In this document: positions 10,545 through 32,453 of the stretch, one piece after another | Position numbering within the stretch: position 1 is the stretch's first letter | How the letters are laid out: the number at the start of each line of letters is the position of its first letter | From: Rhodospirillales bacterium | GTDB taxonomy: Bacteria; Pseudomonadota; Alphaproteobacteria; BOG-932; Roseiterribacteraceae | Length of the DNA stretch: 32,707 bases | Reading direction: 5' to 3' | Assembly (NCBI GenBank): GCA_028291365.1 | Contig: JAQGIE010000267.1 | Span: 1-32,707 of the forward strand | Made by a program: the position numbers and the translations under genes | The notes under the pieces: generated by a model | Told to the model about the DNA's origin: nothing | Database searches by the model: none | The model's input: the letters and a program-made list of their open reading frames with translations, nothing else

Positions 10545-12107
10545 CTACCTGATCGGCGCCGTGTGGTTCCGCGTGACACCGTCGGCCATGAATCGCTCCA
10601 GATCCTGCGCAAGTTTTTTGTGCTCGGCTTCGTCGCGATACATCATGTGGCCGCCTTCATAACATTTGACCGTAATGCGCCTGGTCAGGTCGTCGGGCAG
10701 CGTCGCGATCGAACGCGCTTGTCCCTCGCAGCTATTGGTCGGGTCATAGCGGCCCACCGCGACAAGGATCTGTAGCCCGGGTTGCAGCTGCATCGCGTTC
10801 TGCACCCATGACGGATTCTCGTTGAACATATGCCAGACTTCGCCGTCGACACGTCCCATCGCAAGCGCGGCCGCCGCGCCGTCGGTCTGGTTGTACGACC
10901 ATTGCTTGCCACTGCTGCGCCGCTCCGCTCCCGGCGTCGGCATATACCCCGCTTCCAGCGCGCGATAGGCGAGGTCGGTGTTGAAGCCGAGCGCGCCCGT
11001 GTAGCCGAGATCGGTTGCATAGCCCAACTCTTCGCGTAGATAGCGCGATATGTGGAACTGCCGTTCAGGTGGCTGCTTTTCGTCGCCGAACCGGCGCGTG
11101 TCGACCTCCGCCAACTCGCGCGCCCTGTCGCCGTCGAAAAAGCCCGTGAGGAATTGTCGCGTGTTCATCACAAGCGTTTTGGCGTCGATTTGGTCGGGAC
11201 GCACGCCGGTATAGGCGGCGAGCTGCTCGATGATATTTTTGCGCTCCGCGTCGGACAGCGTGTCGGCTTTGTCCAGCGCCGGCAGATAGGCCGCAGCCAC
11301 CCACGCATCGACCTGTCGCATCGTTATAACGGGAACGCGCTGCAGGTCGGGCGACAGGCGCCTGTAGTGGAGGGCGGTTGCGGCGTGGTTCTGCACGTTC
11401 ATCGCATTCCAGAACGACACCGGCATCTTCACGCTGGGAAACCCGCCGGAGATCAGCAGAAGCCCCGTGACGTTCAGGCCGCGTTTGGCTAGAAACTCCG
11501 CCACCGCAGCGGCGCGCCACACGCCATAGCTTTCGCCCAGCAGGAACAACGGCTGCGTCTGCGCGCCAAAGCGGGCGCGATAGGCGCGCACGAACTCGGA
11601 CGCGGCCGCGACATCACCCTTCATGTTGAAGAATTCAGGCGCGAATTGCGGCTGCGCCAGGCGACTGAAGCCGGTCTCGACCGGGTCGTAGAACACCAGA
11701 TCCGACGTAGTCAGCAGGGTCAGCAGATTGTCGACGACGCCGTCCTTGGTGATACGGCGGGGTCCGAGAAACTCGGTGTGAACATAGATTGACGGAATCG
11801 TCGGCCCGCCGTTCCAGGCGATCATCAGCGGCCGCGGCGCGCTGCCAGCCTTCTGCTTAACCACATAGGCGACGAAAAAGACATGCGCGTGCACCTCGCC
11901 CGTCTCGTCGACACGGATCGGCAGGCGGCCCACGCGTGCCTCGTACTGCAACGGACCGTGCGCAGTCTGCATCGTGTGCTCGGTGATGACGATCGGCTCG
12001 TCGCCGGTCACCAGCGGTGCGATCATGCGTGACCACGCGTGTGCCGCGTGTGCGCTACCGGCCGCGAATGCTACGGCGAGCGCGACGGCGATGGCGGCGT
12101 GCTTCAT
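10545..12107 (-). CDS. Exported serine carboxypeptidase-like protein (peptidase family S10)
   Basis: 520-residue secreted alpha/beta hydrolase that would remove C-terminal residues from peptides. The signal peptide is MKHAAIAVALAVAFAAGSAHA. The S10 features appear in order: IAWNGGPTIPS (about 96-106, the oxyanion region, normally NGGPG), the nucleophile motif GESYG with Ser193, a catalytic Asp in VAVGRYDPTNSC and a catalytic His in YEGGHMMY near the end. The start at 12105-12107 was chosen because it begins the signal peptide and overlaps the S9 peptidase stop as ATGA. The frame stays open upstream to 12734, but that part is antisense to the S9 gene and not coding. Last gene of the sigma-FecR-receptor-peptidase series. 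Substrate unknown. Confidence 0.88.
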   Translation of the reverse strand: MKHAAIAVALAVAFAAGSAHAAHAWSRMIAPLVTGDEPIVITEHTMQTAHGPLQYEARVGRLPIRVDETGEVHAHVFFVAYVVKQKAGSAPRPLMIAWNGGPTIPSIYVHTEFLGPRRITKDGVVDNLLTLLTTSDLVFYDPVETGFSRLAQPQFAPEFFNMKGDVAAASEFVRAYRARFGAQTQPLFLLGESYGVWRAAAVAEFLAKRGLNVTGLLLISGGFPSVKMPVSFWNAMNVQNHAATALHYRRLSPDLQRVPVITMRQVDAWVAAAYLPALDKADTLSDAERKNIIEQLAAYTGVRPDQIDAKTLVMNTRQFLTGFFDGDRARELAEVDTRRFGDEKQPPERQFHISRYLREELGYATDLGYTGALGFNTDLAYRALEAGYMPTPGAERRSSGKQWSYNQTDGAAAALAMGRVDGEVWHMFNENPSWVQNAMQLQPGLQILVAVGRYDPTNSCEGQARSIATLPDDLTRRITVKCYEGGHMMYRDEAEHKKLAQDLERFMADGVTRNHTAPIR

Positions 12108-14248
12108 TTCGTTCGGTCCGGCATCAGTGCGTCGATGAAGAACATCATTTCGGCGGCGACGAGTTCGGGTTGTTTGATCGAGTCCGGCACCGAATGGCCG
12201 CCTTGCGCTTCTTCGATCAGCAGCGGTTTCGCGCCCACCTCTTCCAGCTTGGCGACGAATTTGCGCGCCTGACCGGGACCGACCTGGTTGTCCTCGGTCG
12301 AAGTCATCACAAGAATGCGCGGATAGGGCAGGCCGGTACGGATGTTCTGGTACGGCGACCAGGACAGGATCGTCGGCAGGATTTTCGGATCGTCCCAGTC
12401 GCCGAACTCCGTCTTCTGGCCTTTGATGATGCCCGAGCCCGACGTGCTGAGCGCGCCGACATCGGTCACCGGCACGCCGACGAAAATCGCACCGAACAGA
12501 TCGGGATGCTGCGTCACCATCGCGGCGGTCAGCAGTCCGCCGCCCGAACGGCCGAACGCACCGAGCCTGTTCGGCGCAGTGAAGCCGCTGGCGATCAGGT
12601 CCTCCGCCACCGCGGCGAAATCGTCGAAAGAGTTCTGCTTGTTCAGACCGGTGCCGGCGAGTCGCCACGCGTCGCCGCGCTCGCCCCCGCCACGGATCGC
12701 GGTCGCCGCATAGGCACCGCCGCGCGCGAGCCACGACACCATCCCACGCCCGAGTCCCGACGAGAAATAATCGGGGCTGAAATTGAGTCCGAAACTACCA
12801 TAGCCGCTCATCACGGTCGGCACTGGTCCGGGCGCGGGATATTTCGGCCGCACCAGATAGTAATCGACCAAGGTGCCGTCCTTGGATTTCGCTGCGCGGA
12901 CCTCGACCGTGAAGTCGCGCGCCTCGAAGATCTGCTTGCCCGCTTCGATCTCGACCGGCTTTTTGCCGGGCGCGAGCAAGTCGAGCGTGCTGGGCGTCAG
13001 AAAGCCTTTCCGTTCGACCAACAGCTCGCTACTGACGCCGTCGGGCTTGATCACGTTCAGCGCGACACCGGGCGGCGCCGATTGCAGCTTGCGCACCGAC
13101 CAGCCCTTTGTGGTCGGCGTCGCACGCATCAGTGTCTTTCGGAGGTTGTTGTCTTCGACGAACACAATGCTGTCGCCAGTGCCGTCGATCCCATCGCTGA
13201 CATATGTGCCGCGATCCGGCACGAAGACTGCGCTGACATGGCTGGGCACATCGGCGCGAACGTCGTAGGCGACGATCGTCTCGGCCGCGTACGCCTCGCC
13301 CTCGATCGTCGCGGGAGCGGCGAGCTGCACCGATATGTAGGGGTAGCGCAGCGCAGGACGTCCGACATATTTCAGCTTCTGCGGCAGGTCGATCTTCGAC
13401 AAGGTGCCGCCCGAGTCGATCAGTCGGTATTCGATCGTCGAATAGTCGTGGATGATCGTCAGCACGCCGCGCCGCTGCACACCGGCGCCCAGCGCGAACG
13501 CTTCGACGAGCGAGGTGGACGGCGGTGCTTCGTACAGTTTCTTCGCGTCGACGAGGTTCGTGCCGCGCTTCCACAAATAGAGTGCGGCGGGGAAGTTGCT
13601 CGGTAGCGCCGGACTTCCGTCGAGTGAATGTGCAATTAGAAGCGTGTCCTGGTTCAGCCAGGCGGTGAAAGAACGATTGGGCCTGGTGCGGAAGCCACCT
13701 TCGACGAAGTCGCCTTTGCGCAGATCGAACTCGCGCAGCTCCAGGCTCGACGAGCCACCGGGCGACAGCGCCAGCAAACAGCGGTTGAAGTCGGGCGGCA
13801 GACAGCGGCTGGGAAAGTCGAACATGCTGAGCCCGCTCAACACGTAGGACGCGCCTTCGCGACGATTGAGTTCACCGACATCGAGCACGGTGCGCCAGCC
13901 CGACGGCGCGCGGCCCGCGCGCTTGGGCGCGACTTGCAGCAGGCCCGACGAATGTGCCGCGTCGCGCGTCAGACGCACGAAATGATCGCCCAGCAGAAAC
14001 GTCGGCGGGCGCGGCGCGCTGGCGGCGAGACTGTCGCGCAGCTCGCGTTCCAAGGTGGGGAAGAGCGGTTTGGCCGACAAGTTCGCGACGGCGCGGTCGC
14101 GCCGTTCCTTGGCCCAGGCGATCGCGGCCGGCGCGCGCTGTTCTTCGAGCCAGCGATACTTATCGATGGCGGTCGCTGCGTCCTGCGCGACAGCGAGAGG
14201 CGCCGCGAGCGACAGTGCGAACGACACGGCGAGCAGCCGGATCACCAT
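12104..14248 (-). CDS. Exported prolyl oligopeptidase-family serine peptidase (S9)
   Basis: 714-residue peptidase with signal peptide MVIRLLAVSFALSLAAPLAVAQ. A beta-propeller region (about 90-440) gates the C-terminal alpha/beta hydrolase domain. That domain carries S9A hallmarks: SGYGSFGLNFSPDY, AIRGGGERGDAW and KQNSFDDF, the nucleophile Ser568 in GRSGGG, Asp653 in TEDNQVGP and His685 in AQGGHS, so the triad is intact. S9 enzymes cut after proline or other preferred residues in short peptides. Position directly behind a TonB receptor, with 58 bases between them, suggests it acts on an imported peptide. Exported S9 enzymes beside TonB receptors include lasso-peptide isopeptidases; the motifs here look more like ordinary S9A, so that function is only a possibility. 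Confidence 0.92.
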   Translation of the reverse strand: MVIRLLAVSFALSLAAPLAVAQDAATAIDKYRWLEEQRAPAAIAWAKERRDRAVANLSAKPLFPTLERELRDSLAASAPRPPTFLLGDHFVRLTRDAAHSSGLLQVAPKRAGRAPSGWRTVLDVGELNRREGASYVLSGLSMFDFPSRCLPPDFNRCLLALSPGGSSSLELREFDLRKGDFVEGGFRTRPNRSFTAWLNQDTLLIAHSLDGSPALPSNFPAALYLWKRGTNLVDAKKLYEAPPSTSLVEAFALGAGVQRRGVLTIIHDYSTIEYRLIDSGGTLSKIDLPQKLKYVGRPALRYPYISVQLAAPATIEGEAYAAETIVAYDVRADVPSHVSAVFVPDRGTYVSDGIDGTGDSIVFVEDNNLRKTLMRATPTTKGWSVRKLQSAPPGVALNVIKPDGVSSELLVERKGFLTPSTLDLLAPGKKPVEIEAGKQIFEARDFTVEVRAAKSKDGTLVDYYLVRPKYPAPGPVPTVMSGYGSFGLNFSPDYFSSGLGRGMVSWLARGGAYAATAIRGGGERGDAWRLAGTGLNKQNSFDDFAAVAEDLIASGFTAPNRLGAFGRSGGGLLTAAMVTQHPDLFGAIFVGVPVTDVGALSTSGSGIIKGQKTEFGDWDDPKILPTILSWSPYQNIRTGLPYPRILVMTSTEDNQVGPGQARKFVAKLEEVGAKPLLIEEAQGGHSVPDSIKQPELVAAEMMFFIDALMPDRTK

Positions 14249-14306
14249 CCTGTTCGTCCGTCCAGATGGCGGGATGCCCGTGCGAACGCTCGCACGGGCG
14301 CGCCAA

Positions 14307-16811
14307 TTACCATTTCTGCGTGACGCTGATGCCGATCGTGCGCGGCGGATTCACTGCGTAGCGATACGGGTCGCCGGGCTGGTTGCCGCCACCGGTGTAA
14401 CCAAGCAGGCTGCGCTTGTCGGCAAGGTTGATGACGAAGGCGCTGATCCGGGTTCCGTCGCGCTCGACACCGACATGCATGCCGATCTGGCCAAAGCCGG
14501 GCATGCGGAAATCGATCGCGTCGAGCATGGAGCTGCGATAGCGATAGTCGGCGCCGATGAACCCGTCCCAGTTCTGGAACAACTCGTGGCGATACTCCGC
14601 CTGTAGCGAGGCGACGAACTTGGCGACGAACTGTAGCTGGTCGCCGTCATTTACGGTGCCAACCGTCTGCGTGAAATGCGCGTCGGTGTAGGCGACGCCC
14701 GCGACGAGATCGAGACCCGGTAGCGGCGTCAGTTGGAACTGTCCTTCAAAGCCTTTGCTGACCGCAGTGCCGCCATTTCCGTTGACCAGGAACGGCTGGC
14801 CAACCACCGCTGGCACCAGCGTCTGGACGTCGGTCCAGTCGATATAGAAGACATCGACATCAAACACCGCGCGGCCGCCCCAGGCCTTCGCCTTGATGCC
14901 CGTCTCGTAGCTCCACACCGTGTCAGGATTGTAGGTGAACACGAAGTTCGGAATGTCGAGCGGTGGCTGCGGACGGCCGCCGCCGGGACGAAAACCGCTG
15001 GCGGCGCGCACATAAAGCAGCGCGTCGTCGGTGATGCGCCAGCGGATGCCGGCCGAGTAGGTGTCGACATCGTTGATTGGCCGGTCGTGACGCGAGATCA
15101 CTGCGGTCGGGTTGGCCGGGGTGAAGACATAGCCCGTCTGCACCGTGTCGTTGGCCTGCGAGATATGGCTACGCCGATAGCCGACGCTGACATCAATGTC
15201 GGGGCGGATGTAGTAGGTCGCGTTCACGAAGCCCGCGAACTCCTGCAGGTCGTTGCTGGAATTGCTGAGCGACGCGATGCCGGCCGGCTGCGGCAGCAGC
15301 ACATACTCCGGGCTGCGGATATTGACCGTGCCGCCGGTGTGCGACGTCTCTTTCTGATAGATGCCGCCGACCACCCATTCGAACACGTCGTTGGCGGCTG
15401 ATTGCAGCCGCGCCTCTTCCGAGACTTTCTTGATGTTGTAGTTGTTGACCAGGCTGGCGACGCTGCCGACCGGCTCGTGCAGCGCGTTGACGTATGACGC
15501 GCGCGTGTAGGTGCCGGTGACATCGGTGAATCGGTAGATGTCCTCGCGCGACGCGCCGGTCGCGGACACGAGCGACGCGAAGCCCAGATCGTAGCGAACT
15601 TCCGCCGTATAGATCTGGTCCTTGACGCTGTTGGGCTGGGGCAGGCGCAGCCATTGATTGAGGTCGCCGTGCAGCGCGATGAAGGGGGGCGGCGCATTGG
15701 GCGCAGCGTTGTACGACACCGCGTTCAAACCGTCGGCCTTGGCTTGCTGGTACACCGCGCCCAGCTTGATCTGCAGCTTGTCGGTCGGCTCGTACAGAAT
15801 GCTGGCGCGCAGGCCCCAGGCGCGATCGCTGTTGACGTCCTTGCGGCCGTTCAGCCCGTTATCGATGAAGCCACCGTCGCGACGGTAGAAACCGCTCAAG
15901 CGCACGCCCAGCACGTCCTGCACGATCGGTGCCGAACCTGCAGCGCGCAGCTTGTAGCCGATTTCGCCGTGCTCGATGCTGCCCATCTCGGCGCTGGTGG
16001 TGAAATCGGTCGACGACAGGTTGGGCGACTTGGTCACGTATTTCAGCACGCCGCCCAGTGACGATGCGCCGTACAACGTGCCTTGCGGACCTTTCAGAAC
16101 TTCGACGTGATCAAGATCGGCTGGATCGATGTCGGGTGTATAGTTTGATCCCTGCGCCTCGTTGCTCGCCGAACCGACCGGGATTTCGTCGACATAGGTC
16201 GCGACCGACGAGCCGAGACCCAGCGCCGCGACACCGCGGATGGTGATCTGGTTCTGGCCCGGCCGCCCGAACGACGTGAAGGCGACGCCGGGTACGAAGC
16301 CGAGATAGTCTTCAAGATTGTTGGCGTTAAGCCTTTCCAGCGTGTCGCCGCTGATGGCCGAGATGCCAGCGCCGATCGACGACAGTTTCTCGGACTTCTT
16401 GTTGGCGGTAACGATGATTTCGGCGACATCGCTGCCGCCGACCAGCGTTTGTCCGCGCCGTCCAGCCGGCGACGCGGCCGCACCGACGCGCGTGATCACC
16501 GCCGACCCGTCGATCCCGATCGAATAACGCAGGCCCGATCCCGCCAGCAGCTGCTGCAACGCCGCTTCGAATCCGGTCGCCTTGTCGATGGCAGGCGCGC
16601 GCATGCCGCGCACCAGCGCCGTGTCGAACAGCACGTTGCGGTTGAAGAACCGTCCGGTCGCGAGCAGCGCGTCGCCGAGATCCTGCGCCGGCAGCGAAAT
16701 CGCCGATGGGGCCGGGCTCGCTGCAGTCTGTGCAGATGCCGGTCCAGCGGCGATCGAACTTAGACAGACGCAGACCAATGCTGCGAGTTTCAACTTCACG
16801 CTCATCGCCAT
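14307..16811 (-). CDS. TonB-dependent outer-membrane receptor with N-terminal STN signalling domain
   Basis: 834-residue FecA/FpvA-type transducer. The signal peptide ends around PASAQ (residue 28). An STN domain follows at about 38-112 (ISLPAQDLGDALLATGRFFN, GLRYSI). Next is a TonB-box-like segment (DVAEIIVTA, about 128-136), a plug domain (ITIRGVAALG, LKGPQGTLYGASSLGG) and a 22-strand barrel ending in ISVTQKW with a terminal aromatic residue. The STN domain contacts a FecR protein to signal substrate binding; the FecR and sigma genes lie directly upstream, 103 bases away, so regulation by its own ligand is expected. Two in-frame ATGs (16811 and 16805) are possible. Barrel features place it with general receptors; the ligand (ferric siderophore, peptide or other) is not evident. 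Confidence 0.95.
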   Translation of the reverse strand: MAMSVKLKLAALVCVCLSSIAAGPASAQTAASPAPSAISLPAQDLGDALLATGRFFNRNVLFDTALVRGMRAPAIDKATGFEAALQQLLAGSGLRYSIGIDGSAVITRVGAAASPAGRRGQTLVGGSDVAEIIVTANKKSEKLSSIGAGISAISGDTLERLNANNLEDYLGFVPGVAFTSFGRPGQNQITIRGVAALGLGSSVATYVDEIPVGSASNEAQGSNYTPDIDPADLDHVEVLKGPQGTLYGASSLGGVLKYVTKSPNLSSTDFTTSAEMGSIEHGEIGYKLRAAGSAPIVQDVLGVRLSGFYRRDGGFIDNGLNGRKDVNSDRAWGLRASILYEPTDKLQIKLGAVYQQAKADGLNAVSYNAAPNAPPPFIALHGDLNQWLRLPQPNSVKDQIYTAEVRYDLGFASLVSATGASREDIYRFTDVTGTYTRASYVNALHEPVGSVASLVNNYNIKKVSEEARLQSAANDVFEWVVGGIYQKETSHTGGTVNIRSPEYVLLPQPAGIASLSNSSNDLQEFAGFVNATYYIRPDIDVSVGYRRSHISQANDTVQTGYVFTPANPTAVISRHDRPINDVDTYSAGIRWRITDDALLYVRAASGFRPGGGRPQPPLDIPNFVFTYNPDTVWSYETGIKAKAWGGRAVFDVDVFYIDWTDVQTLVPAVVGQPFLVNGNGGTAVSKGFEGQFQLTPLPGLDLVAGVAYTDAHFTQTVGTVNDGDQLQFVAKFVASLQAEYRHELFQNWDGFIGADYRYRSSMLDAIDFRMPGFGQIGMHVGVERDGTRISAFVINLADKRSLLGYTGGGNQPGDPYRYAVNPPRTIGISVTQKW

Positions 16812-16914
16812 CCCCGTCCTGTGATGGCCCGGTTCGTTCGGGCTCTTGTGGTGAGACGCGGCACGAAAGGAGATTTGCCAGCGCGTTGCGAAAATCTATC
16901 GCCGTGTTACGCGC

Positions 16915-17937
16915 CTACTGCTTGCGGCGGGCGATCTGGATCGTACCGTCGGGCTGGCGTTGCCACGTCAGCGGGAAAGCGCGGGTGAGGTTGTCGAGGA
17001 ACGATGGAAAATCGTTGACGCGGTAGATGCCGCTGACCTGCAACGCTTCGAGATCGGGCGTCGCCAGCCGGATCGTCGCAGGCGAGTAGCGCGCGAATTC
17101 GCGCACCGCGGCACCGAGGAATGTGCCGGCAAACACGATCTTGCCCGAACGCCAGGCGAGTTCGTCATTCGGATCGACGCGCCTGATCGTCGGCGCGCGT
17201 CCTTGCGGCAGCCCGGGCTCATAACTTGCTTTCTGTCCCGGCTCGAGCACTGCTTCAATTGCGCTTGAGCGCGCGTTGCGCAGCTCGACCCGACCGCTAA
17301 CCAGCACCACCGCGGTTGTCGATTCGTCCCGGCGCACCGCGAAATCGGTGCCGGTCGCGTGCACGACGACGCGATCGGCGGCAACGGTGAAGGGGCGGTA
17401 GCTCTCGTGCGCGACGTCGAACTCGGCTTCGCCGGTCAGCAGAAGCAGCTCGCGCTTTCGCCACAACATGCGCACCGCGATCTGCGTCGATCCGTTCAAA
17501 CGGACGCGGCTGCCGTCACTGAGCTGCACGTCGAGCCGTTCACCCTGGCTCGACTCATAGTGATCGGTTGCGACACTTTCGGCTCGGTAGAGGACAATCG
17601 CGGCAGCCAGCACGGCAGCGGCGGCAACCCAACGGGCCGCGCTCACCGGTCGCGTCATCTCAGCCGGTTGCGACCGGTCGCGCCGCGGCAATGGCCCGCG
17701 GGCAGTACCGCGCGCGGCTTCGGCCAGCACGCGCCGCCACAGCACCGGATTGCCCAGCGCCGACCAAGTCCGTTCGGTCAGGTCCATCGCATAGGCATGT
17801 CGCGGATCGGCCGCGATCCAGCTGCGCAGCGCCTCGACGTCGACCGTGTCGGGTTCGCCCGCCAGCCGGCCCAGCCAGTCGGCGGCGACGTCCATCGTCG
17901 CATCGTCGGGCAGGTTGGCGGTGCCGCGCGTGCTCAT
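16915..17937 (-). CDS. FecR-family anti-sigma / signal-transducing inner-membrane protein
   Basis: 340-residue inner-membrane regulator that holds the ECF sigma factor and relays the signal from the receptor STN domain. The N-terminal cytoplasmic part contains the DUF4880-like DVAADWLGRLAG and LRSWIAADPRHAYAMD. One transmembrane helix follows at about 101-120 (AARWVAAAAVLAAAIVLY). The periplasmic FecR domain has GERLDVQLSDGSRVRLNGST and LLTGEAEFDVAHE, and the end is an STN-like C-terminal domain (VSGIYRVNDFPSFLDNLTRAFPL). The start at 17935-17937 overlaps the sigma stop as ATGA. The same frame is open farther upstream to 18162, but that is antisense to the sigma gene. Confidence 0.93.
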   Translation of the reverse strand: MSTRGTANLPDDATMDVAADWLGRLAGEPDTVDVEALRSWIAADPRHAYAMDLTERTWSALGNPVLWRRVLAEAARGTARGPLPRRDRSQPAEMTRPVSAARWVAAAAVLAAAIVLYRAESVATDHYESSQGERLDVQLSDGSRVRLNGSTQIAVRMLWRKRELLLLTGEAEFDVAHESYRPFTVAADRVVVHATGTDFAVRRDESTTAVVLVSGRVELRNARSSAIEAVLEPGQKASYEPGLPQGRAPTIRRVDPNDELAWRSGKIVFAGTFLGAAVREFARYSPATIRLATPDLEALQVSGIYRVNDFPSFLDNLTRAFPLTWQRQPDGTIQIARRKQ

Positions 17938-18491: not shown

Positions 18492-18555
18492 GATCCGCGC
18501 CAGTGCCGCAGAAGGTCAAGTTTTCCAACGCCGAAAACACACTGGATTCTTTGCC

Positions 18556-18571: not shown

Positions 18572-18610
18572 ACGCCTGGCAATTCGCCCGTGATTGCGCG
18601 TCTACCGCAG

Positions 18611-24000: not shown

Positions 24001-25149
24001 TCAGGGACGCTGCTCCGGTGGTCTGGGCGCCGGCGTCGCTGCGGCGGCCGGCGTCGCAACGGGCGGGGTCGGTTCGGCGGCGCTCGGTGACAACGGCGTC
24101 TGCGCCTTCTGCGCCGGCGCAGCTTCCTTGCTGGGCAGAACCGCGTTGGTCGATCTGGGCGACTGGGTTTTGACCGTTGCGCGCGGCACGACACCGCTGG
24201 GCGCGGCGGCGACCTCCGGTTTTTCGGCCGGCTTGTCAGCGGGCGGCGATTGCACGCCGGTGTCGTTGCCGAGAATCAGCGGCATGCCATGCTCGCCCGA
24301 TCCGATCACGACGACCTTGGCGTTGGGCGACTTGGCCAGCTCCAGCGTCGCCTCGATCCCCTTCCAGCGCAGATAGCCTTCGGTGATGCCGTTGGAGATG
24401 ATGTCCTGGAATTCGCGGATGCCCTGCGCCTCGATCTTCTTGCGCTCGGTCTCCTTGGCTTCGCGCAGCAGGCGGAAATCATATTCCTGATTGAGCTGGT
24501 ACTGCTCGTTCTTGCGCTCGACCGCCATTTCGATCGACCTGGGCAGGCGGATGCCGTTGATCAGCACATCCTCCAGCACGACGAACTCCATCTTGTCCGA
24601 CGCCTTCGGATTGAACTTGTGGCGCATGTCGGAACGCGCACGCTCCTGAATGTCGTGCTGCACCCGGTCGCGCGGCAAGCTGTAGATCTGCTCGGGCCGA
24701 TAGAGCGCGAAGATCTCGCGCAAATTGGCGCCGATCACCGGCGAGATCAGCGTGTCGCGATAATCCGGGCCGATATACTGGTGCATGTACCCGACATTGT
24801 CGGCCAGCACCTGATAGCGGTACGAGACCTCGACCGTGATGCCGAGCCCGTCCGATGACAGGACGTGATATTCGACGGTCGCCTGCTGCAGCCGGGCGTC
24901 ATAGATGAACAGCTTGTCCCACGGCCAGGTGATCTGCGTCCCTTCCTCGAGATGCTCGTTGATGACGGTGCCGTGGCCGAAGCGGCGCCAGATCACCGCG
25001 ACATGGCCGGGGTCGACCGTGTGGAAGATCAGCGGCGCGTAATAGACGACGAGGAAGATCGCGAGGAAGACGCCGATCCCGATCTCGAGCGAATAATAAC
25101 CGAGCCAATCGGTCACGCGTTTCCATAGACGACGGATGGTTCGCATCAC
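24001..25149 (-). CDS. SPFH/prohibitin-like (band 7) membrane protein
   Basis: 382-residue protein with one N-terminal transmembrane helix (about 21-43, LEIGIGVFLAIFLVVYYAPLIF). An SPFH/band-7 domain follows at about 45-210 (VDPGHVAVIWRRFG, VEVSYRYQV, IISPVIGANLREI-like segment). Next is a charged coiled-coil stretch (about 215-265, REAKETERKKIEAQGIREFQ) and a Pro/Ala-rich C-terminal tail of about 80 residues that is probably disordered. Family members oligomerise into ring- or cage-like membrane microdomains. It starts with GTG at 25149 (GTGA overlap with the ABC gene) or ATG at 25146 (TGATG). Tight coupling to the exporter suggests a scaffold or chaperone for export, an unusual partner for a peptide ABC transporter. 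Confidence 0.88.
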   Translation of the reverse strand: MMRTIRRLWKRVTDWLGYYSLEIGIGVFLAIFLVVYYAPLIFHTVDPGHVAVIWRRFGHGTVINEHLEEGTQITWPWDKLFIYDARLQQATVEYHVLSSDGLGITVEVSYRYQVLADNVGYMHQYIGPDYRDTLISPVIGANLREIFALYRPEQIYSLPRDRVQHDIQERARSDMRHKFNPKASDKMEFVVLEDVLINGIRLPRSIEMAVERKNEQYQLNQEYDFRLLREAKETERKKIEAQGIREFQDIISNGITEGYLRWKGIEATLELAKSPNAKVVVIGSGEHGMPLILGNDTGVQSPPADKPAEKPEVAAAPSGVVPRATVKTQSPRSTNAVLPSKEAAPAQKAQTPLSPSAAEPTPPVATPAAAATPAPRPPEQRP

Positions 25150-26783
25150 GCGACGGCCTCGCTGGCCAGTTCGAGCAACTTGCCTTCCTCCATCCGTAGC
25201 TGGCGATCGGCGAGATGGAAGTACCGGTCATCATGCGTCACCGCGATGATGGTGGCTCCCCGAGCGCGCAGGATCGGCAGGATTTCGTAATAGAATTTGC
25301 GCCGGAAGATCGGGTCCTGATCGGCCGCCCATTCGTCGAGGATGCAGATCGGCCGCCGTTCCAGCATGGCGACGAGCAGCGCCAGCCGCTTGCGCTGCCC
25401 CGCCGACAGATCGACCGTGTTGAAGGCGCGATCGACCAGCGCGGTTTTTTCGGTCAGCTCCATTTCATCGATCAGCGGCTGCACCTCGTCGGGCGAGTCG
25501 AAATCGACCCCGTGCAGCTTGCGAAACAGATGAAAGTCCGAGAACACGGTCGCGAACATGTCGCGATAGGACTGCGCGTTGACCGGCGTCACCAGCTCGC
25601 CGTCGATCTGGATGCTGCCGAGTTGCGGCAAATAGAGCGCGGTCAGAAGTTTGAGCAGGGTCGACTTGCCCGAACCGTTGCCGCCGGTCAGGAACACGAT
25701 CTCGCCGGCGCGCAAGGTCAGGTCGATCGGGCCAACCGCGAACGGCACGGCGTGGTTGTCGCGATGCTGGAAGACGACACCGCGCAGCACGATCTCGCGG
25801 AAGGCGCGGCGATTGCCGTTGGGCGTCGAGAGCAGCTGCGCGCGCTCGACCGGACCGGCCAGCATCTCGTCCAGCTTGATGATGTTGGCGGCGGCGATGT
25901 TGGCGTTGTTGAACACGGGCACGTTGGCCACCAGCCCCGAGATCGGTCCGATCAGGAACAGCACGGCCGTGGTCGTCTTGACCACGACGTCGCTGTAGCC
26001 CGAGGACAGCATCGGCACCAGGAACACCATGGTGCCGAGCAGCAGATAGAAGGTCGACTGGGCGAAGATGAAATTGCGCGCCAACTCGGTCTGGGCGCTG
26101 GTGCGCAGCGCCGCGGCCCGGGCCGAGGTGACATCGACCTCTTCCTGCACCGCAACGCTTCGGCGGCTGTTCATTTTGACTTCTTTGAAGCCGTCGAGCA
26201 GCCCGGTCAGCTCGTCATGCAGCGCGTTCTCCTGGAGCTGCGCTTCCTGCAGCACGGCGCTGACCCGCGCCGTCTTGCGCAGATAGACGGTCACCGCCAG
26301 GGACATGAACGCGACGGCGAGCGCGAAGGCGGTGAGCGAGAGCGAGATCAGATAGAGCGTGGCGAAAAAGATCAGCACCGCCGATTGCAGCGCCAGCACC
26401 AGCGGCGTCGCTGCCTGCGACATCGTCTGGGTGTCGGTGCGCACGCCGCCATAGATCCGCGCCCGGCCGATTTCCTCGAGGTCGCGCAACTCGCAGGTGC
26501 GCACGCGATCGATCAGCCGCACCCGGATCTGGTGGATCAGCTGTTCGACCTCAGCCGCCGTCTTGGTCATCACGAAGCGTTGGGCGAGCACGTAGATCGC
26601 CATCACCGCCACGAACAGCAGCACGTCGAGGCGGTCGGTGTCGGATTTGGCGGCGTGCTCGGCAGCGCTGTTGATCACGACGAGGATCAGCGCGTTGGCA
26701 ATGCCGGCAACGACCAGCATCATCAGCATGCGCCGGCGCGAGACGCCGACGAAACCGCGGTCGAGGAGGCGTAGCAGCTCCAT
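25146..26783 (-). CDS. Cyclic-peptide-type ABC exporter, SyrD/PvdE-like (fused membrane and ATPase domains)
   Basis: 545-residue half-transporter that would export a peptide-like product across the inner membrane as a homodimer. The membrane domain spans about 15-290, with helices at about 20-40, 52-72, 125-147, 150-168, 240-262 and 268-290. The ATPase domain has Walker A GGNGSGKST (367-375), signature LSAGQ (459-463) and Walker B ICILDE (479-484). Length and order match the cyclic peptide transporter family of SyrD and PvdE, which serves nonribosomal lipopeptides and siderophore precursors. There is no peptidase C39 domain, so a leader would have to be removed by something else. The ATG directly follows the TGA of the small membrane protein gene. 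Confidence 0.93.
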   Translation of the reverse strand: MELLRLLDRGFVGVSRRRMLMMLVVAGIANALILVVINSAAEHAAKSDTDRLDVLLFVAVMAIYVLAQRFVMTKTAAEVEQLIHQIRVRLIDRVRTCELRDLEEIGRARIYGGVRTDTQTMSQAATPLVLALQSAVLIFFATLYLISLSLTAFALAVAFMSLAVTVYLRKTARVSAVLQEAQLQENALHDELTGLLDGFKEVKMNSRRSVAVQEEVDVTSARAAALRTSAQTELARNFIFAQSTFYLLLGTMVFLVPMLSSGYSDVVVKTTTAVLFLIGPISGLVANVPVFNNANIAAANIIKLDEMLAGPVERAQLLSTPNGNRRAFREIVLRGVVFQHRDNHAVPFAVGPIDLTLRAGEIVFLTGGNGSGKSTLLKLLTALYLPQLGSIQIDGELVTPVNAQSYRDMFATVFSDFHLFRKLHGVDFDSPDEVQPLIDEMELTEKTALVDRAFNTVDLSAGQRKRLALLVAMLERRPICILDEWAADQDPIFRRKFYYEILPILRARGATIIAVTHDDRYFHLADRQLRMEEGKLLELASEAVA

Positions 26784-26975
26784 TCAGCTGGCCGCGATTG
26801 CTCGTTCACGACGCAAACGACGACGATCGATCGAGCGCAACATCAGCAGCGTGATCAAGGTGACGAACGGTGTGACGAAGATGGACAGCAGAAAATAACC
26901 GAAAAAGCCGGCCGGGCGGTTGATCGCCATCAGGCCGACGAGGAGGCAGAGCACGATATAGATTGCGATGGCCAT
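26784..26975 (-). CDS. Small membrane protein (63 residues), unknown function
   Basis: Two hydrophobic segments (about 2-19 and 24-46, FFGYFLLSIFVTPFVTLITLLML) are separated by a short NRPAG turn. A basic tail with RRRLRRERA follows, predicting both ends in the cytoplasm. The ATG at 26973-26975 has GGAGAG 5-6 bases upstream. It fits in a 206-base space between the secreted protein and the ABC exporter, with its stop abutting the exporter start, so it is co-translated. It could be an accessory subunit of the exporter. The longer open frame running upstream to 27647 is antisense-type noise. I do not recognise a family. Confidence 0.72.
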   Translation of the reverse strand: MAIAIYIVLCLLVGLMAINRPAGFFGYFLLSIFVTPFVTLITLLMLRSIDRRRLRRERAIAAS

Positions 26976-26989
26976 GATCTCTCCAGCGG

Positions 26990-27475
26990 TTACGGCGCAG
27001 CGCGCAGGGGGAAGAAGCCGAATTCGGAAAAGGTGACCAGCCGACGGCAATCGGTGCCGTCCTCCAGCTCGCAGACCTGGACCACCGCCTCGCCGCGCAA
27101 GCCTTGGCAGGTCGGCGAGTTGACCTGGGTCAAGATGCGCTGGTGGATGTCGTTGGGCAGAATGGTCGGGTGCGTGCTGAGGGAGGCGCCGACCGCGCGA
27201 CCGCCCGCATCGAAAAAGCGGATACCGAGCTCGACCACCCGGACCGGCAACCGCAGCGAATTGCGCACATAGATCCAGGGCGAGCAATACAGCCCCGCCG
27301 GATCGCGCATATCGCCATAGACCGGCGCGCGCGGGACGTTGACGCTGATGCGCGCAGGGCCGCGCAGCAGCTGCTCGACGAGTTTCTCGCCGGTCAGCGG
27401 TATCACCGAGGGCGGCTCCGCCGCCATCGCGGTGGCGGTCGCCAACCAGGTCAGCAGCGCCCATCGCAGCATCAT
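26990..27475 (-). CDS. Secreted hypothetical protein with four cysteines
   Basis: 161-residue protein with signal peptide MMLRWALLTWLATATAMAAE. Four cysteines in the mature part (in YCSPW, PTCQG, QVCEL and TDCRR) could form two disulfides in the periplasm. The middle is strand-rich (WIYVRNSLRLPVRVVELGIRF-type segments), suggesting a small beta-sandwich. The start at 27473-27475 overlaps the phosphopantetheinyl transferase stop as ATGA, and the stop lies 14 bases before the small membrane protein gene. No family recognised; its place beside an exporter suggests a periplasmic binding or maturation role for the product (inference). Confidence 0.75.
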   Translation of the reverse strand: MMLRWALLTWLATATAMAAEPPSVIPLTGEKLVEQLLRGPARISVNVPRAPVYGDMRDPAGLYCSPWIYVRNSLRLPVRVVELGIRFFDAGGRAVGASLSTHPTILPNDIHQRILTQVNSPTCQGLRGEAVVQVCELEDGTDCRRLVTFSEFGFFPLRAAP

Positions 27476-28164
27476 GCGAGTTCTCCCCACCGCACATGGC
27501 GGCGCTGGATCGGCCGGCCTGCCGCCGACGCGACCGCGGCGACAAAGTTCGGATCCGGCTCGAAGGTTTCGACCGACCAGGCGGTGCGCGCGGTGTCGGC
27601 GCGGATCTGCACGGTGCGGACGTCGAGGGCCGGCTCGGCGGTGCCATCGACCAGCCGCGGATCGATCTGCAGGCCGGCGCCGCAAGCTTTCAGGACGGCT
27701 TCCTTGCGCACCCAGCCGCGCAGGGTGCGGCGCGACGCGTCCGAACCGGCAGCGAGCGCGGCGCAATCGGCCGGCGTGAATGCGACGCGCAGCACGGAGT
27801 CGAGGTCCGGCAAAGTCTGGTAGCGTTCGACATCGATGCCGATCGGATCGGGTCCGGCCGCCACCGCGATCATGCTCGCATCGCTGCTGCTGCTCTGGTT
27901 GAACGCCAGCGACGGCATCCCGGCCAGCGCCGGTTTGCCGGTCGGTCCCGCGACCAGCGCCAGCGCGCCGGGATCGGCGCCGACATAGCGCGCCAGCACC
28001 CGCCGCAGCGCCACGCGGCGATCGGCGAAACGCTGCGCATCGCGCGGAGCGTGGAACCGGTCGCGCCGGGTGCGTTCGGCCGGCGAGAGCAGCGACCAGG
28101 CCGCGCGCGACTGGTCGTACGTGGCGTCGAGCCGGACGAACCACACGTCGATGGCGTCGCTCAT
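27472..28164 (-). CDS. 4'-phosphopantetheinyl transferase, Sfp type
   Basis: 230-residue enzyme that transfers phosphopantetheine from CoA to the serine of acyl- or peptidyl-carrier proteins. Visible motifs are PTGKPAL (about 74-80), the metal-binding GIDVE (Asp111, Glu113) and WVRKEAVLKACG (Trp151, Glu155, Lys159). The segment normally reading FNxSHS is FNQSSS (88-93), so the CoA-contacting His is Ser. The length matches Sfp-type enzymes. Overlaps the thioesterase gene by 4 bases. Its presence implies a carrier protein, which is not found in this window, so the partner lies outside or elsewhere in the genome. Confidence 0.92.
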   Translation of the reverse strand: MSDAIDVWFVRLDATYDQSRAAWSLLSPAERTRRDRFHAPRDAQRFADRRVALRRVLARYVGADPGALALVAGPTGKPALAGMPSLAFNQSSSSDASMIAVAAGPDPIGIDVERYQTLPDLDSVLRVAFTPADCAALAAGSDASRRTLRGWVRKEAVLKACGAGLQIDPRLVDGTAEPALDVRTVQIRADTARTAWSVETFEPDPNFVAAVASAAGRPIQRRHVRWGELA

Positions 28165-28928
28165 GCCATCGCCTCGGTGGCGAGCGTCGCGACCAGGTCG
28201 GGCAGCGACGATTGCTCGTGCAGGAAGAAATGACCGCCCGGCACCTGCAGCATGCGGAACGGGCCGCGCGTCGCGCGGGCCCAGCCCTGCAGCCCGGCCG
28301 CATCGACGAAACCGTCATCGGCGCCCCCCAGCGCCACGACGGGGCAGGCAAGCACCGTCGATTCCGGTGCGACCAGCGCCTCGTTCAAGGCGAAATCGGC
28401 GCGCAGCAGCGGCAACAGCAGCGCCAACAATTCGGGATTGTCGAAGACCTGCGCCGGCGTTCCGCCGAGGCTGCGCAGATGCGCGATGAAGGCGTCGTCC
28501 GGCAGCGCGTGGCGTCCGGGAAAGCGCGGCGGCGCCCACGGATTGTCGCGCGCCGCGACGACGAGGCGCTCCGGCGACGGCAAGCCGGCGGCTGCGAGCG
28601 CATTGGCGAAAGCGAAGGCGACGTTGGCGCCAAGACTGTAGCCGAACAGAGCGAAGGGCCGGTCGAGATACGGACCCAGCGCATCGAGCAGCGGCGGGAT
28701 CGCCGCTTGCGGCGTGCGCGCCAAGGTTTCGCGAAACCTTGCTTCACGGCCGGGCAACTGCACCGGACAGAATTCGACGTCGCGCACACGGCGCCACTTG
28801 CGGAACACCGACGCGCCGCCGCCCGCATAGGGAAAGCAGAAGATGCGCAACGCGGCACGCGGATCGGGCGCGCCCGACGGCAGATAGGGTGTGACCGGCA
28901 GTTCGCCGACGCGTTGCGCTTCACCCAT
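28161..28928 (-). CDS. Type II thioesterase (GrsT/SrfAD-like)
   Basis: 255-residue alpha/beta hydrolase that normally clears mis-loaded carrier proteins of NRPS/PKS lines. Hallmarks are FCFPYAGGGASVFRKW (30-45) and LPGREARFRE (58-67), the nucleophile Ser98 in GYSLGA, a catalytic Asp at about 204-205 in GGADDGFVD, and His233 in VPGGHFFLHE. ATG at 28926-28928 overlaps the dioxygenase gene by 8 bases. Together with the phosphopantetheinyl transferase it argues that the pathway uses thioester-bound intermediates, in apparent conflict with the lack of an NRPS in the window. Confidence 0.92.
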   Translation of the reverse strand: MGEAQRVGELPVTPYLPSGAPDPRAALRIFCFPYAGGGASVFRKWRRVRDVEFCPVQLPGREARFRETLARTPQAAIPPLLDALGPYLDRPFALFGYSLGANVAFAFANALAAAGLPSPERLVVAARDNPWAPPRFPGRHALPDDAFIAHLRSLGGTPAQVFDNPELLALLLPLLRADFALNEALVAPESTVLACPVVALGGADDGFVDAAGLQGWARATRGPFRMLQVPGGHFFLHEQSSLPDLVATLATEAMA

Positions 28929-29880
28929 GCGCCGCGACTTCGCTGTAGGGCGCGCTCATCGCCGCCAGGATCAGGCGCTTGCCGGTGAAGGAGTCGCGCC
29001 CGTGCGCGACCTGCATATTGTCAAGCAGCAGCACGTCGCCGCGCTGCCATGTGAAGCGCTGGATCTCGGCCGCGAAAGCGGCGCGGATGGCGGCGAGATC
29101 GTCCGCGTCGATGGCGCCGCCGTCGGCATGCACGGCATGGCGCGGCAGGCTGGATTCGCCGAACAGATCAAGCATGGCACGCGCCTGCTCGTCGCCGAGG
29201 CTCGACACGTGAAACAGATGCGCCTGGTTGAACCAGATCTCGCGCCCGCTCACGGGGTGCCGCGCGGTCGCCTGACAGGCCTGGCTGGTCTGCAGCCGGT
29301 CGCCGTCCCAGCGCGCGTCGATCGCATGCGCCGTGCAATAGGCGTCGACCTCGGCACGGTCGTCGGTCTGGAATACGGTCTGCCACGGCAAGTCGACATT
29401 GGGCGCGTAGTTGCGCACATAGCGCACGCCGCGTGCCGCGAAGCGCGCCATGCGATCGGCCCCGATCCGTTCGGTGACGCGCAGCATGTCGGCGAGCGGC
29501 GTCGCGCCGCCGCTGGCGGCGGCGATGGCGCAGTGAAAAGCCAGCCGTGTCGGCCAGTCGCGCTGATAGGCGTTCTCGCAATGCAGCGGGATTTCGAGAT
29601 CGGCGGGATAGATGGTGGCGGTGAAGACGCGATCGCCGACGCTGGTGCGCGGCGTCGAGCGATAGACATAGTCGAGTCGGTCAGCGCCCAGCGCATCGAC
29701 GAACTCGGCGAAGGAATCCTGGTCGGCGTCGAAACCGCGCAACAGCAACGCGCCATGCTGCAGCAGCTGCGCCTCCAGCAGCGCACGGTTGGCGACGGCG
29801 AAATCGGGCAGCGTCGCGACGCTGGCGGGTTCGATCACGAAGGGAAGCACGCGTTGCTGCGCGTCGGCGGCGGCGTGCAT
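28921..29880 (-). CDS. TauD/TfdA-family Fe(II)/2-oxoglutarate dioxygenase, SyrP-like
   Basis: 319-residue cupin-fold oxygenase expected to hydroxylate an amino-acid side chain using 2-oxoglutarate. The metal triad is visible: His100 and Glu102 in PLHCENAY (an HxE in place of HxD, common in the SyrP/TauD group) and His293 in MQVAHGRDSF. A 2-oxoglutarate-binding Arg is near 302 (GKRLIL). The segment WFNQAHLFHVSSL at about 216-228 is typical of SyrP-like enzymes that act on carrier-bound or peptide-bound residues such as aspartate. Starts 8 bases after the radical SAM stop. The substrate may be the peptide made by the cluster (inference). Confidence 0.9.
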   Translation of the reverse strand: MHAAADAQQRVLPFVIEPASVATLPDFAVANRALLEAQLLQHGALLLRGFDADQDSFAEFVDALGADRLDYVYRSTPRTSVGDRVFTATIYPADLEIPLHCENAYQRDWPTRLAFHCAIAAASGGATPLADMLRVTERIGADRMARFAARGVRYVRNYAPNVDLPWQTVFQTDDRAEVDAYCTAHAIDARWDGDRLQTSQACQATARHPVSGREIWFNQAHLFHVSSLGDEQARAMLDLFGESSLPRHAVHADGGAIDADDLAAIRAAFAAEIQRFTWQRGDVLLLDNMQVAHGRDSFTGKRLILAAMSAPYSEVAAHG

Positions 29881-29888
29881 CGAAGCGC

Positions 29889-31817
29889 TCAGGAAGCAAG
29901 CGCGCGCGATACCGCGACGCCGGAATCGCCGGTGGGAACCAGGCTCATGACACGGCCGCGCTCACGGAACACGAGGTTCTTGCGCACCAGCAGGTCGTAG
30001 GCGGCACCGAACTGGGCCTGCACCCCATCTTCCTCGCGCGGCTCGGCCAACGCGGCGAGACAGGCGAGCTCGCCTTCACCGAGGTCGGTTTCGATCATCA
30101 TGCCGCGGCGCGTGTCTTCGAGCGTGGTGCCGTATTCGCTTTCGATCAGCGTCAGGCCGGGCGCGAACAGACCATCCTGGGTGTGCCAGCGACGTTGCCA
30201 TTGCCCGACTGCTTCGCGCAGCGGCGCGATCCAGCTACCGACCGCCACCGCATACGGCGCGTCGGCATTCTGGTCGGCAAAGTAATAGGCCATGTTCATC
30301 AGCACGCGCGGCGGGAACGGATAGGCGAGCGCGTAATAATCCAGCGGCGCCAGCTTGAGTTCGTAGCGCGCGGCTTCGGTGAAATACGGGCTGAACCGGT
30401 CGAAGCGCACCGGGAACACGCCCTGCGGCGGCGGCAGATGTGCCAGGTGCGGCAGGTCTTCGAGATAGGTGCGATAGGTGTCGGCACTTTCGCCCGGAAA
30501 CCCGACCAGCAGGTTCCACATCGGCGTGACATCGTATTGCTTGCACAGGCTGAGGAACTTGAGATTGTTGAACGACGTCGTGCCCTTGCGCATCAGCTTG
30601 AGCGTCGACGTCGCCAGCGCCTCGATTCCGGGCTGCAGCTCGCGCACGCCGGCCTTCGCGAGGATGCGCAGATCGTCTTCCGACAGATCGGCCTTGACCT
30701 CGTAGAACATGACCACGTGCGGCGGCGTCTTCAACCGCGCGAACACGCCGTCCACATATTCGCGCGGCAGGATGTTGTCGACGCTGGCGAAGCGGTGCAC
30801 GCGATCGGCATAGCGATCGAACAGGCCTTCGATCATCGTGATCGCGGCGTCGGGAGCCATGGCGCGGTACGACATCGTGCCGCCGTTCAGGCCGCAAAAC
30901 GTGCAATGGGCGCGCTCGCCCCACCAGCATCCGCGCGACGTCTCGAACAGCAGCTCGACCCGGTCCGCAACCTCGGGGAATCGACCCACATAGGACTCGA
31001 GGAATCCGTCGTAATCGAGCGCCACCGGCGTCTGGATATCCAACTCGCGGCCCATCTCGGCGATGCCGTCCAGTTGGCGCTTGGGCGAATGCTTGCCGTA
31101 CACGACGACTTCGTCTTCGGGCACTGCGACTTCGATCGACCGGCTGTTCTGGCGGCTGAGAACGCCGTCGATCCGGTGCATCGCGTCGACGTTGCCGCTG
31201 GCGAGATGCTCGACGAATTCCGGGAACGACAGCAGCGCGTGGCCCGAAAACACGAAGTCGAGCGACGGCACGTGGTTGATGATCTCGATTCCCATCGTGC
31301 CTTCGCAATTGGCACCGCCCATCACGACGATCTGCTTGGGATTGCGCAGCTTGAGACGGCGCGCCAGTGCGAAGCTGGGCAGGTTCTGGAAGAACATCGA
31401 CGTCAGCCCGACGAGATCGGCCTGGTCGAGCCCGTGCTGATCGATCAGCTCGTCAAGAATGTCATCGAGGCGTGCCCGCACCGGTTCGATGACGCGCCCA
31501 TACAGCGCCAGCCGCTCGGGTCCGAAATGCTGGGCGTAGCGCGCGAAAAACGCGTCACTGTTGTCGGGCAGGTCGGGAAACGCCGAACGGCGGAACAGCC
31601 ATTCGCCAAAACCGCTGACATGCCCCTCCATGCTGTTGGCGATGAAGCCATAGGTCTCGATACCGAACAGGGTGCCGAAAGCATGGTTGAGATAGTGTAC
31701 GTCGACGCTTGCCCGGCCCGGCATCGCCGCTTCGACCACCGATCGCAGCTGCGTCAGCGCGATCGAGGGAATGTGCAGCGCCGAGAACGGCATGTTGACG
31801 AGCTGGATCTTGATCAT
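29889..31817 (-). CDS. B12-binding radical SAM enzyme, RiPP maturation type (rSAM_ocin / RiPP C-methyltransferase-like)
   Basis: 642-residue enzyme. The N-terminal part (about 1-240) is a Rossmann-like cobalamin-binding domain with family wording VNMPFSALHIPSIALTQL, VDVHYLNHAFG, MFFQNLPSFALARRLK and VMGGANCEG; a DxHxxG motif is not seen. The radical SAM core (about 285-520) has the cluster ligands Cys297, Cys305 and Cys308 in SRGCWWGERAHCTFCGLNG, the CWWG...CTFCG pattern of the ribosomal-peptide maturation subfamily TIGR03975, whose members sit beside leader peptides of the Nif11 or NHLP type. The last about 120 residues are variable. ATG at 31815-31817 has GGGGAG 6 bases upstream. Known members are proposed to C-methylate peptide residues. 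No typical leader peptide is seen nearby. Confidence 0.92.
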   Translation of the reverse strand: MIKIQLVNMPFSALHIPSIALTQLRSVVEAAMPGRASVDVHYLNHAFGTLFGIETYGFIANSMEGHVSGFGEWLFRRSAFPDLPDNSDAFFARYAQHFGPERLALYGRVIEPVRARLDDILDELIDQHGLDQADLVGLTSMFFQNLPSFALARRLKLRNPKQIVVMGGANCEGTMGIEIINHVPSLDFVFSGHALLSFPEFVEHLASGNVDAMHRIDGVLSRQNSRSIEVAVPEDEVVVYGKHSPKRQLDGIAEMGRELDIQTPVALDYDGFLESYVGRFPEVADRVELLFETSRGCWWGERAHCTFCGLNGGTMSYRAMAPDAAITMIEGLFDRYADRVHRFASVDNILPREYVDGVFARLKTPPHVVMFYEVKADLSEDDLRILAKAGVRELQPGIEALATSTLKLMRKGTTSFNNLKFLSLCKQYDVTPMWNLLVGFPGESADTYRTYLEDLPHLAHLPPPQGVFPVRFDRFSPYFTEAARYELKLAPLDYYALAYPFPPRVLMNMAYYFADQNADAPYAVAVGSWIAPLREAVGQWQRRWHTQDGLFAPGLTLIESEYGTTLEDTRRGMMIETDLGEGELACLAALAEPREEDGVQAQFGAAYDLLVRKNLVFRERGRVMSLVPTGDSGVAVSRALAS

Positions 31818-31921
31818 CGCAACTCCCCGCCGGCGCTCACCTGTAAGATCCCTGCCGGAGTCTCGGAGGCGGACCGGGGTGCGGACCTGCGCCGCAACGA
31901 GTAGGTCAGTTCGTGCCCGGT

Positions 31922-31960
31922 CGCTTCAGACGTCACGGCGGGGGCGTGACGCCTGAGCGA
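31922..31960 (-). terminator. Strong stem-loop between the first and second genes of the operon (attenuator candidate)
   Basis: Perfect 7-base stem CGTCACG (31931-31937) / CGTGACG (31945-31951) with a 7-base G-rich loop. It is extended by TCAG/CTGA (31926-31929/31953-31956) and outer CGCT/GCG pairs with one bulge. No T-run follows on the minus strand, so it looks more like a partial terminator or mRNA-processing/stability element than a full stop. It would favour the upstream gene's transcript. Confidence 0.55.
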
Positions 31961-31973
31961 ACGGTTTGTCAGA

Positions 31974-32453
31974 TCAGGCGACGGCGGGCTTGCGCGCGCG
32001 CGCTGCGTCGACCTCGGCGGCGAATTCCTGCTTCTTCGCCGACAGGTCGAAGGTCAGGAAGGTCCCGCCCTGCTCGAAATGACGCGCGAAGACGCGGCCC
32101 AGCGCGTAGGTCGCGGCCACCGACAGGCCCGGCATGGCGATCATGCCCGCCGCGGTGCCGATCACCGGGATCGCCTTGATCAGGCTGCCCGTCACGCTAG
32201 CCGCCGCGGCCGGGGCGAGGCTGCCCAGCAACGAGACGACCGTCGACTTCACCGCGTTGCGCTGGAACGGCACGTCATAGAGTTTCGACAACGAATGCAG
32301 CATCTTGAGCTGCACGGCGGTGAGCGCCGCGATGTCGGCGCCCGGCACCGGAATGAAGCCCGCACCAGCCGCCCAACCGGTGTAGCCGCCGACGAGCTTC
32401 ATCGCTTCGTCGTACTTGCCCACGCCGTTGCTTTCGATTTGAGACTGGGTCAC
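31974..32453 (-). CDS. DUF697 (YcjF-like) small membrane-associated protein, first gene of the biosynthetic operon
   Basis: 159-residue protein rich in Gly, Ala and Val. It has the DUF697-type core GFIPVPGADIAALTAVQLKML (about 32-52), LSKLYDVPFQRNAVKS and LIKAIPVIGTAAGMIAMPG (91-109). It also has several moderately hydrophobic helices (about 22-45, 70-90, 95-120), a charged segment DLSAKKQEFAAEVDAARARK and a short tail ending KPAVA. The start is GTG at 32451-32453 with GGGAGGG 4-5 bases upstream. There is no signal peptide. It precedes the radical SAM gene by 156 bases containing a stem-loop. It could anchor the biosynthetic enzymes to the membrane, or itself carry a modified region, in the way of a large precursor; neither is shown. 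Confidence 0.8.
   Translation of the reverse strand: MTQSQIESNGVGKYDEAMKLVGGYTGWAAGAGFIPVPGADIAALTAVQLKMLHSLSKLYDVPFQRNAVKSTVVSLLGSLAPAAAASVTGSLIKAIPVIGTAAGMIAMPGLSVAATYALGRVFARHFEQGGTFLTFDLSAKKQEFAAEVDAARARKPAVA

Follow-up and report, generated by a model that had tools for sequence, protein, structure and literature searches.

We asked whether the exporter, tailoring enzymes, receptor and exported hydrolases encoded on this contig form one pyoverdine-like pathway, as a preliminary description of the locus had proposed, or belong to separate loci. The window, i.e., the whole stretch of DNA that was analyzed, is the complete contig C135 (32,707 bases) of genome G000 (4.37 Mb, 271 contigs). 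Positions 1-10286 constitute an efflux region with two RND pumps, two adaptors, an outer-membrane factor and a TetR gene. Family searches of the window's ORFs placed the genes previously named from 10545 onward in two minus-strand operons. Between these operons lie a divergent PLP gene, an Hpt-like ORF (19880-20377; PF01627 at 21.3 bits, below the cut-off of 24.6) and a PEP-CTERM-like gene. Our results suggest that 10545-19846 and 24001-32453 are very probably two unrelated loci: the right one would be the tailoring and export arm of a non-ribosomal peptide synthetase (NRPS) cluster and the left one a peptide uptake unit. Most of the genes announced in the preliminary description are indeed present, but they form two units rather than a single pyoverdine-like set, and that description had overlooked the TIGR03975 enzyme, the PPTase, the SPFH and DUF697 proteins, the fact that the window is an entire contig, and the NRPS gene that appears to start at the contig end.

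The NRPS-side operon

The right-hand genes are the following, in the order of the operon:

31974-32453, minus strand: DUF697 protein, 159 aa, first gene of the operon (PF05128, 7.3e-10)
29889-31817, minus strand: B12-type radical-SAM C-methyltransferase (TIGR03975, 472.7 bits, cut-off 281.85)
28921-29880, minus strand: TauD/TfdA Fe(II)/2-oxoglutarate oxygenase (PF02668, 3.2e-41)
28161-28928, minus strand: type II thioesterase (PF00975, 3.1e-35)
27472-28164, minus strand: 4'-phosphopantetheinyl transferase, PPTase (PF01648, 1.1e-13)
26990-27472, minus strand: small exported protein, 160 aa, with a signal-peptide-like N-terminus (from translation and operon position)
26784-26975, minus strand: small two-helix membrane protein, 63 aa (from translation)
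25146-26783, minus strand: PvdE/SyrD-type cyclic-peptide export ABC transporter (TIGR01194, 343 bits, cut-off 286.2)
24001-25149, minus strand: SPFH/Band 7 membrane protein (PF01145, 2.5e-25)

From the radical-SAM gene through the SPFH gene (31817 to 24001), neighboring genes overlap or are separated by gaps within about 15 nt, and the DUF697 gene lies 156 nt upstream of the radical-SAM gene. The radical-SAM cysteines C297, C305 and C308 are invariant in all 20 aligned rows. The PvdE-like exporter and the type II thioesterase of the preliminary description are both confirmed by their family matches, and its SyrP-like hydroxylase is indeed an oxygenase, resolved to the TauD/TfdA level only. The HxE motif and distal H of this oxygenase were spotted by eye. 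A search of the PDB with the radical-SAM protein returned no match at 0.01, a search with the exporter at 1e-30 added nothing, and nothing specific was found in the literature on SPFH proteins with NRPSs.

A similar cassette was observed in locus L003, on contig JAGWRJ010000263 of the alphaproteobacterial MAG REEB323 (genome G096). This locus repeats the order DUF697, radical SAM, TauD, thioesterase, small membrane protein, ABC transporter and Band 7, with identities of 44-62% over the matched stretches. The DUF697 homolog is partial (44% over 48 aa) and occupies the same position, the exporter is 53% identical, the Band 7 protein is 45% identical over 147 aa, and the HxE motif of the oxygenase is present there too. 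By eye, a comparable small membrane ORF was recognized immediately ahead of the exporter gene (4369-4635 of L003). Between the thioesterase and the exporter, L003 presented no match to the PPTase or to the exported 160-aa protein, and its contig ends hide the flanks. Judging from these gene families, 24001-32453 is predicted to provide tailoring and export for an NRPS cluster. The earlier proposal of a non-ribosomal, exported peptide for the right half gains support from the families of the operon and from the NRPS that appears to begin at the contig end.

The probable NRPS beyond the contig end

The following feature probably connects the window to a second contig:

32686-32707, no strand: 22-nt end of the contig, shared without mismatch with the start of the NRPS contig C229 (sequence identity)

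No other match to these last 22 bases was reported in the genome, and an end match of this kind would arise by chance among the 271 contigs with a probability of about 1.7e-8. Contig C229 encodes an NRPS that runs off its far end, where the last 22 bases occur only once in the genome. Contig C261, when reversed, begins in the same carrier domain, and abutting it to C229 yields a single frame of 3628 aa. The joins C135-C229-C261 are deduced from the sequences of the contig ends rather than from reads or a closed genome, and there is no overlap between C229 and C261. Along 3.2 kb, the DNA of the two contigs is 81% identical (another NRPS contig, C118, reaches at most 69%) and the longest exact repeat across their junction is 29 nt; this repeat and the 81% identity plausibly explain the assembly break. 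We infer that the NRPS of the right operon continues on C229 and C261 just past the contig end.

By motif, the first NRPS protein reads C-A-PCP-C-A-PCP-C-PCP-C-A-PCP and the second C-A-PCP-C-A-PCP-TE; the first was also domain-typed by Pfam, in two pieces, and the TE was assigned by motif only. The joined NRPS contains in total five A domains, one A-less module and a terminal thioesterase, i.e., about six modules. The A-less C-PCP module is the third, at about residues 2020-2600 of the joined NRPS (C261 side). On this predicted domain order, any residue that this module adds would have to be loaded from outside the module. The A-domain codes, in order, are DVWHISLID, DAFFLGGTF, DAFFLGVTF, DATKVGEVG and DAWTVAAVC, which we take to specify Ser, Val/Ile, Ile, Asn and Phe, respectively; the code positions and the C/A/PCP motifs follow general rules for NRPS domains. 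With the codes read in this way, none of the five is predicted for Orn, Dab or Asp.

Relatives of the radical-SAM enzyme

We further analyzed the relatives of the radical-SAM enzyme. All 20 aligned proteins match TIGR03975 at 1e-50. For 19 loci from the genome collection, flanks of 10 kb on either side were fetched where the contig allowed, and tblastn identified NRPS matches within 10 kb of eight of them. These eight loci span five phyla (Gemmatimonadota, Acidobacteriota, Myxococcota, Actinomycetota and Pseudomonadota). At two loci, L011 and L015, an NRPS was seen by eye only and is not included in this count; the twentieth locus, L023, presented no NRPS match. The NRPS label was not clustered on the radical-SAM tree (seven changes, with 361 of 500 shuffles as low). 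An NRPS-only clade is therefore not demonstrated. The A-domain codes beside these relatives (15 domains) are mixed rather than uniformly Val/Ile, which leaves a uniform Val/Ile target without support. Near relatives are rare: at E ≤ 1e-100, a single genome among the 398 sampled from the phylum was found, the window's own. The nearest relative of the window's enzyme comes from an alphaproteobacterial MAG, which suggests that G000 is probably an alphaproteobacterium as well. TIGR03975 is curated as a RiPP maturation family, and the adjacency of this family to NRPS genes at 8 of 19 loci calls for caution in labeling TIGR03975 loci as RiPPs. In another study, RiPP clusters called by the TIGR03975 rule were discarded as likely false positives (PMC9426513).

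The gamma-glutamyltransferase gene

Two features lie downstream of the SPFH/Band 7 gene:

22176-23891, minus strand: exported gamma-glutamyltransferase, GGT (TIGR00066, 363.9 bits, cut-off 357.85)
22055-22094, minus strand: strong terminator hairpin after the GGT gene (17-pair stem and T-rich tail)

The exported GGT had been recognized in the preliminary description, and its family score is above the cut-off. The gene starts 109 nt after the SPFH/Band 7 gene with no terminator-like match in between, and the fold of the terminator (51 nt) reaches -36.3 kcal/mol (z -7.8). The gap without a terminator and the strong hairpin past the gene make it possible that the GGT gene belongs to the operon. 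The NRPS-side operon may end with this gene, in which case the unit would reach 22055 and a periplasmic maturation step would be possible. The relatives lend no support to this membership, since the nearest GGT relative in G096 has a different neighborhood: by eye, it is flanked by what looks like a FAD oxidoreductase gene and by an MsrA-like gene, and no Band 7 gene adjoins it. Genome G000 contains five GGT genes, so that the window's GGT is a paralog. A role as counterpart of PvdQ was rejected by family, as 22176-23891 matches only the GGT family PF01019 at E ≤ 0.001. A literature search on GGT prodrugs returned nothing specific.

The left unit

The genes of the left unit are the following:

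18611-19846, plus strand: class-V PLP enzyme with a Tat-like leader, seen by eye (PF00266, 1.4e-30)
17934-18491, minus strand: FecI-type ECF sigma factor (TIGR02937, 79 bits, cut-off 42.9)
16915-17937, minus strand: FecR-type anti-sigma factor, ATG at 17937 (PF04773, 4.9e-21)
14307-16811, minus strand: TonB-dependent receptor with an STN signaling domain (PF00593, PF07715, PF07660)
12104-14248, minus strand: S9 prolyl-oligopeptidase-family peptidase with a signal-like N-terminus (PF00326, 8.2e-44)
10545-12107, minus strand: exported S10 serine carboxypeptidase-family protein, ATG at 12107 (PF00450, 1.1e-7)

The FecI and FecR genes overlap, and the receptor, S9 and S10 genes follow within 103 nt or overlap, the start of the S10 gene overlapping the stop of the S9 gene. 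The STN receptor with FecI/FecR regulators that the preliminary description had reported is confirmed by the corresponding families. The receptor scored 150.9 bits against the TIGR01783 siderophore subfamily, below the cut-off of 223.5, and its best PDB matches, ranging from the colicin I receptor to the ferripyoverdine receptor, were partial. The PLP enzyme most likely starts at ATG 18611. It had been described as a Tat-exported enzyme of the PvdN fold; the class-V PLP assignment and the Tat-like N-terminus stand, but the fold is merely the general class-V fold: the enzyme scored 33 bits against the PvdN model NF051467 (cut-off 650) and, among the best 60 of its 71 PDB matches, the PvdN structure came near the bottom, below many cysteine desulfurases. 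Elsewhere in the genome, C63:17297-21059 contains two further class-V PLP matches related to 18611-19846. The best PDB match of the S9 protein is a post-proline cleaving enzyme and none of its 45 matches is named isopeptidase.

These families suggest that the left unit is most likely a cell-surface-signaling TonB operon that includes genes for two exported peptidases and is accompanied by a Tat-type PLP enzyme; the unit would sense, import and degrade environmental peptides, the presumed substrate. Peptide use fits the neighborhoods observed in G001, a 99% complete genome of the same genus, where the PLP genes adjoin S10, TonB receptor, amino-acid permease and amidohydrolase-like genes.

Conservation of the two halves

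The preliminary description had cautioned that the link between the two halves was unproven, and this caveat is upheld by the relatives. Genome G001 possesses a PLP-S10-TonB receptor island, with PLP relatives 49% and 43% identical to the window's enzyme and an adjacent S10 protein that is 54% identical at best. No radical-SAM match was found in G001 at E ≤ 0.001. The island presented no matches to S9, FecI or FecR, and it therefore represents a partial counterpart only. Apart from the window's own genome, the NRPS-side cassette was found in G096 alone; this genome presented no PLP match at E ≤ 1e-15, weak S10 matches (about 30% identity) and, in a fragmented assembly, no NRPS resembling that of C229 (best 28% identity). 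The halves are not co-conserved: each occurs independently of the other in the two directions available. Because there is one genome each way and G096 may be incomplete, this dissociation is evidence against a fixed link rather than proof.

Alternative explanations

We considered whether the contig could nevertheless encode one metallophore pathway. In this reading, the PvdE-like pump would export an NRPS siderophore, maturation would follow in the periplasm, and the STN receptor, controlled by FecI/FecR, would take the product back up. The surface-signaling trio lies on the same contig, and TauD enzymes carry out Asp hydroxylation in other siderophores, which counts in favor of this reading. 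PvdE-type exporters also serve pyoverdine and the siderophores of the phymabactin/ornibactin group, according to the passages on these systems in PMC6206403 and PMC10991261. However, no PF13434 ornithine/lysine hydroxylase (the PvdA family) was detected in the whole of G000 (12 of 14 controls were positive), the A-domain codes as we read them include none for Asp, Orn or Dab, the receptor and the PLP enzyme fall below the TIGR01783 and PvdN cut-offs, the latter by far, and the halves dissociate in G001 and G096. A single pyoverdine-like pathway was rejected on these grounds, and we regard one metallophore pathway of any such kind as very unlikely. Compared with the pyoverdine pathway, as far as it is outlined in PMC6206403, the locus shares an NRPS peptide and an exporter of the PvdE family; it differs by a GGT in place of a PvdQ-type acylase, by the lack of a PvdA-type hydroxylase and, by cut-off, of PvdN, and by a receptor unit that is unlinked. 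Of the peptidic metallophore with periplasmic maturation and re-uptake proposed earlier, the exported peptide is retained, but neither the metallophore nor the link to the receptor half is.

Two further readings each concern one of the loci. The left unit could recognize and linearize a lasso-type peptide, by comparison with isopeptidase clusters of related bacteria: the layout given for these clusters in part of PMC9266682 includes an S9-family peptidase, a TonB receptor and a sigma/anti-sigma pair, all found here. However, no lasso synthetase was found among the window's main ORFs that were scanned, the S10 peptidase and the PLP enzyme are extra, and the closest solved S9 relatives are the post-proline cleaving enzymes mentioned above, which makes this reading unlikely. 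The right operon could instead be a RiPP cluster whose short precursor might be, for example, the DUF697 protein, and the neighboring NRPS would be incidental. The curation of TIGR03975 agrees with this, as does the DUF697 gene, which opens the operon and is conserved in L003. However, the DUF697 protein has no leader-peptide family match, a PPTase and a type II thioesterase are typical of carrier-protein pathways, an NRPS appears to start at the contig end, and eight of the 19 TIGR03975 relatives adjoin NRPS genes; we consider a RiPP cluster highly improbable.

Proposed pathway and product

Under the two-locus reading, the PPTase of the right operon would prime the carrier domains of the NRPS, whose predicted product is a short peptide X-Ser-Val/Ile-(residue of the A-less module)-Ile-Asn-Phe. 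The methyl group added by the radical-SAM enzyme would go to an unactivated carbon, for which the beta position of a Val/Ile residue is the most likely candidate, as in the case of DscE. The TauD enzyme would hydroxylate one residue; both sites are putative. The type II thioesterase would free misloaded carriers, the PvdE/SyrD-type pump would export the product with the SPFH and small membrane proteins, and the GGT may trim the peptide in the periplasm.

The most useful new result is that a TIGR03975 methyltransferase accompanies an NRPS cluster; the logic of this cluster appears close to that of discodermin, and its peptide is undescribed. The sections of PMC12858407 on the discodermin dsc cluster describe, as here, an NRPS peptide and a cobalamin-dependent radical-SAM C-methyltransferase, DscE, which methylates a non-ribosomal peptide in vitro; Val/Ile targets are available in our locus. 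The dsc cluster has 14 modules versus about six here, DscE is likened to our enzyme by description and not by sequence, and the TauD, PvdE-type exporter, SPFH and DUF697 genes distinguish our locus from the cluster as described there (PMC12858407). By this analogy, a C-methylated non-ribosomal peptide made in the manner of discodermin is the supported product, and a pyoverdine-like metallophore is not supported. A concrete NRPS cluster, for which building blocks are predicted, takes the place of the metallophore hypothesis. Late C-methylation, reported for the non-ribosomal peptide discodermin (PMC12858407), becomes testable in more systems. Tentatively, and at less than even confidence, we propose a widespread and so far under-recognized class of non-ribosomal peptides with RiPP-style carbon methylation, in which TIGR03975 enzymes would act on NRPS products in several phyla; in the present case, Val/Ile would be converted to a tert-leucine-like residue, TauD would hydroxylate the peptide, a PvdE-type pump would export it with the help of the SPFH and DUF697 proteins, and the GGT would trim it in the periplasm.

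Other genes on the NRPS contigs

Beyond the NRPS, C261:50105-56873 encodes a carbamoyltransferase, ParA-like and porin-like proteins and a GDSL lipase autotransporter. A second NRPS locus, C118:5373-13304, contains an A-PCP protein, a region that is P450-like by eye followed by NRPS sequence, and a PPTase-like ORF. Finally, C165:3527-7750 encodes an A-PCP protein fused to hexapeptide-repeat transferase-like sequence.
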